A DNA stretch of 39,445 bases from a virus. Position numbers and translations under genes: made by a program. Below the pieces are notes generated by a model. That model made no database searches. It was given only the letters and a program-made list of their open reading frames with translations, and was not told the origin of the DNA. Shown here one piece after another: positions 9,643 to 39,250 of this stretch (within the stretch, counting starts at the first letter, position 1; each line of letters opens with the position of its first letter). Location of the stretch: the IMG/VR virus record IMGVR_UViG_3300030451_002041, positions 1,735 through 41,179 of that record. One strand, given 5' to 3'.

Positions 9643-9657
9643 TGCTTTATATACTAA
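9643..9657 (-). promoter_or_regulatory. early promoter (TATA element) of helicase-exonuclease-thermosome operon
   Basis: Minus-strand TTAGTATATAAAGCA. The centre of the TATATAAA box is about 24.5 bases upstream of the helicase ATG, which with usual archaeal spacing would give a leaderless or nearly leaderless message. Identical copies precede other operons. Confidence 0.85.
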
Positions 9658-9685
9658 CCCTGAACATTTGATTTACGATGCTGCT

Positions 9686-10396
9686 TTATAAACCCCGTCT
9701 ACGCCTAACATTTCTTTCAATATGAACAGGTGATTCGCTTGTTAAAGTCTCTACAATCAGTTGTCTTTTCTTATCACCTAAGCCCTTTACTTGTTTAAGC
9801 GACTCAGGAAAACACATCTCCTCTAGGCTACCGCATTTAGTAAGTAACCTTTCTGCTAGTTCAGCACCTACACCCGGTATGGTGAGTAACATATCCACCC
9901 TTACATCGTTAGTAGACACTCTCCTGATAGCATGAGCACCATGCTTACTAGCGGGCTTGTGTAACTTGTTGTGTAGTTTTGTGATGAACATGGCAGCCTC
10001 ACTAATGTTAGCAGTGAAGAAAACTTGGCACTCAAAGTCAGCCATGATTCTAGCGATAGTGCCAGTCAATTCATTCTGCACTCTACTGTGTGTTAGATTT
10101 CTACCTTGCTTCTTAGCGAATGCAACATACTTAGCGATAGAGCCATGGATGACTAGAAAGAAGCGCTCATAATTAGCATCCATGTTGTCGAGTTGCCTCC
10201 ACAAATGACCACTATGACTTGATTGAAATAAATCGGTAACACTTTTTGCTTCTACACACGCAGCACCTAATAGATAATCACCTACTACCAAAGGTTGTCT
10301 TACTACATTAAGCCCTTCCTTCTTAGCCCTTCGTTCTATAGATTCACAAAGAGCACCACGCTCATTAGAGTCAATGATTAAATCAGGCTTCACCAT
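9686..10396 (-). CDS. XPF/ERCC4-type structure-specific nuclease with helix-hairpin-helix tail
   Basis: 236 residues from ATG 10396, which has GGGTGA upstream; a longer frame starts at 10435 but would overlap the previous gene by 53 bases. Nuclease core: LIIDSNERGAL (D9, E12), VVGDYLLG (GDY 39-41) and CVEAKSVTDLFQS, the counterpart of the ERK-x3-D motif with the Arg changed to Ala. The C-terminus carries two helix-hairpin-helix units (TIPGVGAELAERLL and VKGLGDKKRQLIVETL). Such proteins cut branched or flap DNA, and would process forks or recombination intermediates. It closes the clamp-PolB-primase operon. Confidence 0.85.
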   Translation of the reverse strand: MVKPDLIIDSNERGALCESIERRAKKEGLNVVRQPLVVGDYLLGAACVEAKSVTDLFQSSHSGHLWRQLDNMDANYERFFLVIHGSIAKYVAFAKKQGRNLTHSRVQNELTGTIARIMADFECQVFFTANISEAAMFITKLHNKLHKPASKHGAHAIRRVSTNDVRVDMLLTIPGVGAELAERLLTKCGSLEEMCFPESLKQVKGLGDKKRQLIVETLTSESPVHIERNVRRRRGL

Positions 10397-36389: not shown

Positions 36390-38972
36390 TCAAAGTCCTA
36401 AGTCTCTCACTACAGTCTCAGGTATATCACCTGCTGCTACCATGGCTTTCAGTAGTGCATTAGCCATACCCTTTCGCTCATTGATGTCTCCACCATCAAG
36501 CACAGATTGTATGACCTCACGCTTCTCTTCGACTACCGAGTTGAATTTCTCATCAATAGTGCCCTTGACAGATAGATACACAGCGTGAACAGTCTCCGCA
36601 TCTTGGCCGATACGATTGACTCTATCTTCCGCTTGCTCCTCCCACGCAGGTGACCACTCTCTTTCGATGAACACAACTGTGTCTGCCTTAGTGAGTGTGA
36701 GTCCTTCTTTGGCTGCTACTGTGGAACAAATCATAACATCAATGTCACCACGCTGAAACGCATCTACTCTCTCTTGTCTCTTGTCTGCTGATACACTACC
36801 TGTAATCAATCCAACATTACACTCACCCTTCAACTCATCAACCAATCCTTCAACTACATCTTTGTGGTGTGCAAAGACAATGGTTGGTTTGCCTGTGACA
36901 TTTCTGTATTCACGAACCCAATCAGCAGTGGCTGATATCTTTAGGATACCACAGTGGTGGCGTAATTCAGTAAGCATATTCAAGACAAAGCCCGCAGGAA
37001 CACTACCGTGTTCTTTGTGCATGGCATACTGATTCAACCATGTAGCCTGAGCGTTTTTGTATTCTTTCATCTCCTTTGGTGTAGGTATGACATCTACGAT
37101 TTGTCTAATCTTGTCAGGCAATTCTTCCATGACTTCTTTCTTGAGCCTACGAATAGTGAAGGCTCTTGTTCTCTCATGTAACTCACCTTCGTTAGATGAA
37201 CCATTGAAATCCCAACCCCAACCATTGTGTGAAGCATTACAGTATTGCTTAGCATAGGCAAAGAAGTTACCAAACTCAGTTGGCCTGAGTAGGTTGAGTG
37301 TAGTAAAGAATTCAATAGGTCTGTTGGTAATAGCAGTGCCGGACAAACAGATGATGTCCTTGCTTGTGTTAGCCACAGAAAGTGATGCTTGTGTGCGCTG
37401 AGCCTTACTGTTCTTGAGATAGTGTGACTCATCAAAGATGACTATGTTGAAGCCACGCTCTTCAAGTGCAAGTTGTTGTTTCTTCATGAGGTCATAGTTG
37501 ATGACTACAACATCAGTCTGTGGTATCTCGGACTTGCCATTCTTGACAGCCTCAACTGTGAGGTTAGGTAACCATGTGGTAAACTCCTTGACCCAATTGT
37601 ATTTGACATTGGCAGGAGCAACTACTAGGACAGGATGATTCTCAGGATGTAGTGCTGCATACGACAGGGCTTGGATAGTCTTACCCACACCCATGTCGTC
37701 TCCAATCAAAGCACGACCACCGGCTAACTCACAGAAGCGAACACCGACATATTGGAAAGGATACAACTCTCTACCCTCGGGGAATTGTTCGGATAGTCTC
37801 GCTTTCATTTCATCTATCTTCGCTTGGTCAGTCAAAGCAGCAGCAGACGATAGTGCAATACGCTCAGCCTGTGACTCTACCACTGCACCCATTCCATCTA
37901 TAGAAGCGATAGCGTCGGACAATGGTTGATAGATTCCATCTAGTCTACGAGTAAGGAATGCTGCTTGAGATACAGGGACTTTCCACGCCTTGCGAGAAGC
38001 ATCCCACTTGCGACCCATGACTCCTTTGACGATACTCATAACCTTCTGTCGTAGGTCAGCGTCTTTGAGCCACGGCCACTTGAGGACAAGAACATCAGCC
38101 TCGATAGTAGCAGACACAGCAGGGTCAGTGACCGCCTTGGATGTGTCAGGCTTTGGTGCTTTAGCAGCAAGCGCTGTTATCTGCTCAGCATGGAAACCAT
38201 GCTTCTCGAAGATGGTGGCAGCATTGGTTAGTGTCTCAGGTGTGTAAGTGAGTGACCAAAACTCTCCGTTCCACTTGATAGCAGGGAAGCCAAGCGAGGA
38301 CTTCAATTCATCTTTGACAGCATTATGCCTAGGGAAACGAAGTGATACTCTTCGTGACTTCTTAGGCCACCGCCTTGCTGAATCATTCTTACCATACCAT
38401 ACATCCTCGTAGACTTCAGCCTTGACTGTCATGCGCTCACGCAAAGATGCTTGTTGAGTCATGTATGAAGCAAGTGTTTCTTGATACAGTGCATTCAACT
38501 CATCCGGCTGTGAGATAGTATCTCCTGAACAGTGCTCTTGCATATACTCAAGGCACATCTTCATGACTTCTTCATCAAAGGTCATAGCATCCATGGCTGT
38601 GGTTGCTTTCTTGCCATCCTTGAACAAAGACTTGAACGCTCTCCTTAGTTTGCTTTGTGCTGCTGCTTTGGCTTTAGCCTTGACACCGATAGCAGTCATG
38701 TCCTTGAGGAATGAATCAACATCTACATGGGAAGGTATACCACACCACTCCATCAGTTGTGGTATCTGTGTCTTTCTGTATTTGTAGAATCTTTCAGCAG
38801 CCTCTACATACAAAGTCTCAGGGATATCCTCACGCTTGTATAGACCTTCAAAGAATGGTGCATCACCCGCATTCGGGCCGATGTAGTCACGCTCTCCATC
38901 TACATGAACCTCACAAAATTTGTTAATCAATTCACGCATTACTCCTTTGGTTACTAATTTCTTACTCTTCAT
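36390..38972 (-). CDS. SNF2-family helicase, SMARCAL1/HARP-like
   Basis: 860 residues from ATG 38972 (AGGAG 10 bases upstream; GTG 38981 is possible). Helicase motifs: LIGDDMGVGKTIQ (I, about 424-436), VLVVAPANVKYNW (Ia), VIFDESHYLKN (II, DESH), CLSGTAITNRP (III), TIVFAHHKDVVE (IV), ICSTVAAKEGLTL (V) and QAEDRVNRIGQ (VI). Before the core are two HARP-like repeats (SLRFPRHNAVKDELK with KWNGEFWSL; VLKWPWLKDADLRQKV with WDASRKAWKVP), as in annealing helicases. The first 200 residues are unassigned. It would remodel forks or anneal RPA-coated strands. Own promoter overlaps the upstream gene. Confidence 0.93.
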   Translation of the reverse strand: MKSKKLVTKGVMRELINKFCEVHVDGERDYIGPNAGDAPFFEGLYKREDIPETLYVEAAERFYKYRKTQIPQLMEWCGIPSHVDVDSFLKDMTAIGVKAKAKAAAQSKLRRAFKSLFKDGKKATTAMDAMTFDEEVMKMCLEYMQEHCSGDTISQPDELNALYQETLASYMTQQASLRERMTVKAEVYEDVWYGKNDSARRWPKKSRRVSLRFPRHNAVKDELKSSLGFPAIKWNGEFWSLTYTPETLTNAATIFEKHGFHAEQITALAAKAPKPDTSKAVTDPAVSATIEADVLVLKWPWLKDADLRQKVMSIVKGVMGRKWDASRKAWKVPVSQAAFLTRRLDGIYQPLSDAIASIDGMGAVVESQAERIALSSAAALTDQAKIDEMKARLSEQFPEGRELYPFQYVGVRFCELAGGRALIGDDMGVGKTIQALSYAALHPENHPVLVVAPANVKYNWVKEFTTWLPNLTVEAVKNGKSEIPQTDVVVINYDLMKKQQLALEERGFNIVIFDESHYLKNSKAQRTQASLSVANTSKDIICLSGTAITNRPIEFFTTLNLLRPTEFGNFFAYAKQYCNASHNGWGWDFNGSSNEGELHERTRAFTIRRLKKEVMEELPDKIRQIVDVIPTPKEMKEYKNAQATWLNQYAMHKEHGSVPAGFVLNMLTELRHHCGILKISATADWVREYRNVTGKPTIVFAHHKDVVEGLVDELKGECNVGLITGSVSADKRQERVDAFQRGDIDVMICSTVAAKEGLTLTKADTVVFIEREWSPAWEEQAEDRVNRIGQDAETVHAVYLSVKGTIDEKFNSVVEEKREVIQSVLDGGDINERKGMANALLKAMVAAGDIPETVVRDLGL

Positions 38973-38977
38973 ATCAA

Positions 38978-39250
38978 TCACTCTCCTATATTCTGTTGCT
39001 TTATATACTCAGCATCTTGCTCTATGAGTTTCCATAATGGATAACACAAGACCTCAGTGCTGTGGGGTGCATGGACTAGGGTTTCGTATACACCCATGTC
39101 CTGCAAAGCATACCCCTGTTCTTTCATTTCATCACACCACTCATCAAAATCTCTCGCCTTGATGTAGGTAACTGTAGGTTTGTCTAACAACTCACCTGTT
39201 ATTGAATGTTCAACTATGACTCTATGCCATGGTGGGAAATGCTTGCTCAC
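38978..39250 (-). CDS. 90-residue protein, unknown
   Basis: GTG 39250 is the likely start: AAAGGAGGAG lies just upstream and the codon overlaps the stop of the preceding gene (GTGA). A longer frame to 39325 would sit on top of that gene. The sequence (KHFPPWHRVIVEHSITGELL; EWCDEMKEQGYALQDMGVYE) mixes strands and helices with no known motif. The last codons (EYIKQQ) overlap the promoter for the SNF2 gene. Confidence 0.6.
   Translation of the reverse strand: MSKHFPPWHRVIVEHSITGELLDKPTVTYIKARDFDEWCDEMKEQGYALQDMGVYETLVHAPHSTEVLCYPLWKLIEQDAEYIKQQNIGE
38997..39010 (-). promoter_or_regulatory. early promoter of the SNF2 helicase gene
   Basis: Minus-strand GAGTATATAAAGCA, with TTAG altered to TGAG. 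The box centre is 31.5 bases before ATG 38972 and 22.5 before GTG 38981. Confidence 0.75.

Follow-up and report, generated by a model that had tools for sequence, protein, structure and literature searches.

A putative core promoter with lineage-private flanks heads the replication-arm operons of magroviruses

Viruses of the Sulfolobales (SIRV2 and others) carry virus-wide early regulatory sequences around a core of B recognition element (BRE) and TATA box (PMC11065993), the BRE being where TFB contacts DNA (PMC7289017). Virus-specific early promoters are already known in archaeal viruses. Magroviruses are tailed viruses associated with marine Poseidoniales archaea; for one of them, YSH_150918 (Aoguangviridae), a TFB gene is labelled in a figure of the International Committee on Taxonomy of Viruses, whose profile describes no promoter (PMC10768690). 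We found no description of a magrovirus promoter in the literature searched. Here we analyse a repeated TATA-containing element in a window of 39,445 nucleotides (nt), positions 1,735-41,179 of the 41-kb virus record IMGVR_UViG_3300030451_002041, and its counterparts in related viruses.

The element appears to act as core promoter for the replication-arm operons of magroviruses, with flanks private to each lineage and, we infer, a virus-encoded or virus-modified TFB-type reader; we put the probability of this reading as a whole at about 0.7. The case for a virus-wide promoter serving these operons is good, since position, strand, probable transcription start and conservation in relatives all speak for it, and an extra dedicated factor reading the flanks is plausible. 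The window fits the magroviruses in its gene content: it encodes a chaperonin of the Cpn60/TCP-1 family, a family B DNA polymerase (PolB, with relatives in haloviruses), a clamp-loader (RFC) small subunit, an ERCC4 nuclease, a SNF2 helicase and an ArdC-like protein. PolB, RFC and the chaperonin are traits of the Magrovirales, as are the opposed replication and virion arms, which were seen in relatives. These relatives were gathered by PolB (48-94% identity), further ones through the chaperonin, and the reading covered over 30 genomes or fragments.

Searching both strands of the window for the 15-mer TTAGTATATAAAGCA, with up to three mismatches, gave 16 matches, where shuffled sequence gave 1.8 ± 1.3 and never more than 6. 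The two on the plus strand have three mismatches each and are compatible with chance. The other 14 are the minus-strand sites that an earlier note on this DNA had listed as 13 near-identical elements and one weaker copy. All 14 are real, but ten are exact, two have one mismatch, and the copy at 16683 is as weak as that at 13324, with three each. Two positions needed adjustment, 29281 to 29279-29293 and 13327 to 13324-13338. As claimed, every copy is on the minus strand before an operon-leading gene, with an ATG 20-38 nt past TATAAA. The downstream tail, said to be a fixed GCA(GC), is conserved in a looser form: the full 17-mer ending in GCAGC is exact at only six sites, and GCARCA is a better consensus. 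The copies, with the distance from TATAAA to the ATG of the gene (protein length in amino acids, aa) or open reading frame (ORF) behind them, are as follows.

9643-9657, minus strand: exact copy, 20 nt to the ATG of a 468-aa gene (8219-9625) that precedes the chaperonin gene
13324-13338, minus strand: weak copy, three mismatches, 28 nt to the ATG of a 117-aa gene
16683-16697, minus strand: weak copy CTAGTATTTAATGCA, three mismatches, 20 nt to the ATG of a 255-aa gene upstream of PolB
20118-20132, minus strand: exact copy, 20 nt to the ATG of the RFC small subunit
22998-23012, minus strand: exact copy, 22 nt to the ATG of a 191-aa gene; the run of genes behind it contains that of mini-TFB, a TFB-like protein described below
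24107-24121, minus strand: exact copy, 21 nt to an ATG with no Shine-Dalgarno; ORF of just 26 codons in this contig
27835-27849, minus strand: exact copy, 38 nt to the ATG of a 201-aa gene
28148-28162, minus strand: exact copy, 21 nt to the ATG of a 92-aa gene
29279-29293, minus strand: copy with one mismatch, 29 nt to the ATG of a 137-aa gene
32869-32883, minus strand: exact copy, 38 nt to the ATG of a 787-aa gene
33794-33808, minus strand: exact copy, 26 nt to the ATG; 32-codon ORF in this contig, against 70 aa at this place in the sister virus G001
35484-35498, minus strand: exact copy, 28 nt to the ATG of the ArdC-like gene; within the tail of the upstream ORF
36372-36386, minus strand: exact copy, 29 nt to the ATG of a 111-aa gene
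38997-39011, minus strand: copy with one mismatch, 27 nt to the ATG of the SNF2 helicase gene; within the tail of the upstream ORF

A few of these copies overlap the 3' end of the preceding gene. The box also deviates (TATAAAAAG) at the site orthologous to 13324 in the relatives G004 and G008. The very short ORFs behind the exact copies at 24107 and 33794 may be decayed genes or reflect sequence errors. The ArdC-like protein (34508-35467, minus strand), which has its own promoter copy, combines an ArdC N-terminal domain with an MPTase-PolyVal metallopeptidase, an anti-restriction-type architecture.

Among the relatives the flanks are virus-specific, taking the forms TTAG, TTGA, TTCC, TTCAC (TACTTAAA), CCCATTTAAAGGAACA, GATTC, AAACTAACTAAG and others. 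Each lineage has its own version, near-identical over its copies; G numbers denote individual relatives.

TTAGTATATAAAGCA: the window and G001
TTGATATATAAAGCA: eight relatives, with GGA replacing GCA at some sites
TTCCTATATAAAGCA: G022, where the first base varies
TTCACTACTTAAAGCA: G011 and G028, whose G+C contents are 11 points apart
TTCAGTATWTAAAGAAACA: G027
CCCATTTAAAGGAACA and CTCATATAAAGGAACA: G013, G015
GATTCTATATAAAGAAA: G021
AGTATATAAATCRGCAAAG: G034
TATTTAAACTAACTAAG and GACTATTTAAACTGATA: G035, G036
GTTGGGRTATTTAAAGGAAACAATA: G018, three copies

Orthologous genes retain the promoter in the same position but with the local virus's version, as the RFC promoter alone shows in 16 viruses. 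The earlier note's claim that no plus-strand late gene carries the motif drew on only about five visible late genes, but holds more widely: in near-complete relatives all close copies lie on the replication-arm strand and none in the late arm. As a promoter it would be virus-wide within the replication arm, and its description as early would follow from gene content. The flanks are private to the lineage and switch together at nearly all copies, so that whatever reads them must change too, and this suggests a virus-specific recogniser evolving together with its signal. In G013 (L101-L103) and G015 (L082-L084) four promoter copies each fall within coding sequence, at the 3' end of an upstream gene (these ORFs have about 105-710 codons), and promoter and coding constraints thus overlap at these copies.

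Fixed flanks could in principle have arisen without any regulatory role, as stop codons of upstream genes or by recent copying of a DNA repeat. TAG or TGA can come from TTAG or TTGA, and does at a few sites, but few sites have an upstream stop within the motif, which led us to reject a stop-codon origin for these two flanks. In the TTCC and TTCAC versions the flank spells no stop, and conservation is confined to about 20-25 bp in a fixed place before genes. We regard an origin of this kind as scarcely credible.

The geometry of the promoter was analysed at 144 non-redundant sites from 15 magroviruses, which share descent, so the counts are not fully independent. TATAAA is followed by the start codon after 20-21 nt at 43 sites, 22-25 nt at 9, 26-32 nt at 54 and at least 33 nt at 36. 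The start codons of the 20-21-nt class have no Shine-Dalgarno in 19 of 43 cases, and a pyrimidine directly precedes the ATG in 39 of the 43, against 36 of 90 elsewhere. At the larger spacings a pyrimidine-purine step, such as forms the initiator of archaeal core promoters, recurs with its purine at position 21 or 22 (44/54 in the 26-32-nt class, 31/36 in the class of 33 nt or more). The clustering of start codons at 20-21 nt and the recurrence of this step at 21-22 nt together indicate that transcription probably starts 21-22 nt after TATAAA, as in ordinary archaeal TATA promoters, and that the mRNAs of the 20-21-nt class, about a third of the total, would be leaderless. Start sites placed in this way would fit the spacing of archaeal core promoters, whose TATA box precedes the start by about 22-30 nt.

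The Shine-Dalgarno often lies merely 8-18 nt past TATAAA, which prompted us to consider a -10-type promoter for a phage-like sigma factor or a viral RNA polymerase, where transcription would start a few nt past the box and include the Shine-Dalgarno. Where a Shine-Dalgarno is missing, however, most start codons lie 20-21 nt from the box and have a pyrimidine at -1, and the pyrimidine-purine step recurs at 21-22 nt. This spacing and initiator analysis, together with the archaeal type of the virus's genes, makes such a promoter very improbable, and we discarded it.

The promoter would thus comprise a virus-specific flank of 4-6 bp at the BRE position, a TATA box (TATATAAA), the GCARCA extension and, 21-22 nt beyond the box, an initiator of the pyrimidine-purine type. 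It would probably be used in the standard archaeal manner by host RNA polymerase and TBP. As the variable flank occupies the position at which TFB contacts DNA, its reader, which would have to change along with it, may be a TFB-type factor encoded or modified by the virus. One protein of the window is a candidate for this role.

21831-22169, minus strand: mini-TFB, a 112-aa TFB-like protein with a single cyclin fold, third gene of the run starting at promoter 22998

PF00382 is weakly matched by 12 of 13 mini-TFB orthologues, the window protein scoring 13.4 bits, under the curated 23.6-bit cut-off. Among PDB sequences the seven best matches are all TFIIB or TFB, at weak E values of 0.5-0.8. In a Foldseek search the AlphaFold model (pLDDT 87) found Pyrococcus TFB (1ais, 1d3u) as its top matches, with probability 0.99-1.00, a TM-score of 0.5 and E about 0.1. 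The protein has one cyclin fold where TFB and TFIIB have two repeats, and its alignment contains no cysteine pairs or N-terminal extension, hence no zinc ribbon or reader segment. Given the single cyclin domain and the missing zinc ribbon, we do not class it as a TFB. In the PolB tree mini-TFB falls in two separate clades. The idea that the downstream element AAAGNARCA goes strictly with mini-TFB looked promising after this tree, then failed, because AAAGAAACA, AAAGGAAACA or AAAGGCACA boxes precede RFC in G031/G032, G017/G018 and G033, where mini-TFB was not found; G031-G033 are fragments or partly read, so that its absence from them is weak evidence. Weak mini-TFB matches in G031/G032 proved to be a different, cysteine-rich protein. 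Directly upstream of promoter 24107 lies the gene of an 83-aa protein (24118-24369, minus strand) with a weak match (E 0.0015, below cut-off) to PC4, a transcription coactivator with a single-strand DNA-binding fold.

A recogniser supplied by the virus may not be needed if host factors suffice, the element being a strong promoter tuned to the TFB and TBP of each virus's host and the flank differences being host differences. The start-site geometry is ordinary, we found no viral TBP in the genomes searched, several Thermoplasmatota-type genomes have two TFB genes, and private promoters occur also in viruses where mini-TFB was not found. Host genomes, however, hold almost nothing like the motif. 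The earlier note had named a similar density in unrelated marine archaeal genomes as grounds for refutation, and TTRRTATATAAAGCA, which covers the window's version, has one match in 116 genomes of the order Poseidoniales. TATAAAGNARCA has 6 matches in 40 genomes, against 75 for its reversed control. The window-type motif is thus near-absent, and its core depleted, across the order. One version is, moreover, common to viruses of 43% and 54% G+C. Host factors alone keep a substantial chance, though short of an even one. Outside the hosts, TTRRTATATAAAGCARCA was run against 2.9 million viral contigs and turned up 42 stretches, many in magrovirus contigs already collected, the other contigs being identified in part.

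The conserved flanks might also be an operator, at which a viral repressor or regulator, mini-TFB or another small protein, sits over BRE and TATA box and times or shuts off the early genes. There is a precedent in the SIRV2-type sequences, which are virus-specific, shared around BRE-TATA and thought to be bound by viral regulators (PMC11065993), and the mini-TFB gene stands in a run headed by the motif, so feedback is possible. The motif shows no evident palindrome or repeated operator, however, and its conserved part is the core promoter itself. We consider an operator unlikely.

Several points weigh against our reading of a core promoter with a dedicated TFB-type reader. At many sites the Shine-Dalgarno lies upstream of the inferred start, which requires us to assume that it acts only on read-through mRNA from the upstream operon, the least comfortable part of the model. 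The flanks TTAG, TTGA, TTCC, TTCAC and GATTC are not the purine- or A-rich sequence expected of a BRE. The comparison with host promoters drew on very few readable ones, and one TATA variant sought 20-21 nt before an ATG in host DNA gave fewer matches than its reversed control. Mini-TFB was not found in G017, G018, G021 or G034-G036, each with its own repeated promoter, and covariation of its residues with motif type is no better than for a tree split (11 columns against 8). Given these negative searches and the unconvincing covariation, mini-TFB is kept only as a candidate, the best in this clade and not a universal one, and we advance it tentatively. It is possible, but doubtful, that this minimal TFB acts alongside host TBP and TFB and steers host RNA polymerase towards lineage-private promoters, promoter and factor co-evolving. 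The earlier note's dedicated factor beyond host TBP therefore gains from the concerted flank change and the near-absence of the motif in hosts, and loses from the ordinary TBP/TFB geometry and from the viruses in which mini-TFB was not found.

A second repeated element, roughly TWATAAAGCAGCATCG, shares AAAGCAGCA with the promoter. It occurs on the minus strand of the window near 20887-20904, 14153-14170, 9675-9692, 7822-7839 and 3947-3964, and also in G004, G011, G012 and G028. Most copies are intragenic and most use the strand of the replication arm, in places running antisense to late genes. In the main clade the element is well over what chance would give by a rough estimate, and it is rare in other clades.

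Magroviruses are abundant and uncultured. With the promoter as a guide, the replication-arm operons of new magrovirus contigs, their start codons and their probable leaderless mRNAs can be located from sequence. At least ten versions of the promoter occur in nature, part of them with mini-TFB versions alongside, which makes it testable whether archaeal viruses reprogramme host transcription with a general-initiation-type factor of their own.

Like the SIRV2-type early sequences, the magrovirus element is one conserved BRE-TATA sequence per virus, shared by many of its genes and different between viruses. The SIRV2-type sequences mark mostly single anti-defence genes and keep a similar BRE-TATA core from virus to virus, whereas the magrovirus element heads replication-arm operons and its BRE position, in some lineages also its TATA box, is replaced in concert. 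With the standard archaeal promoter (PMC7289017) it has in common the TATA box, an element at the BRE position and a pyrimidine-purine initiator at the standard distance, but its flank is lineage-private and not purine-rich, and a conserved GCARCA is added past the box. Mini-TFB shares the cyclin fold with TFB/TFIIB and the TFB paralogues, Pyrococcus TFB giving its best structural matches, but has a single cyclin repeat, no zinc ribbon or reader segment and a score far under the Pfam cut-off. YSH_150918 (ON649702) is another magrovirus, one with an annotated TFB gene; its record did not turn up in the phage-collection search with mini-TFB. The proposed pairing of mini-TFB and promoter may be likened to that of phage sigma factors, which co-evolve with phage promoters. 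New to this comparison are the concerted, lineage-by-lineage exchange of the flank, which in some lineages extends to the TATA box, the map of operons and probable start sites, and mini-TFB itself.

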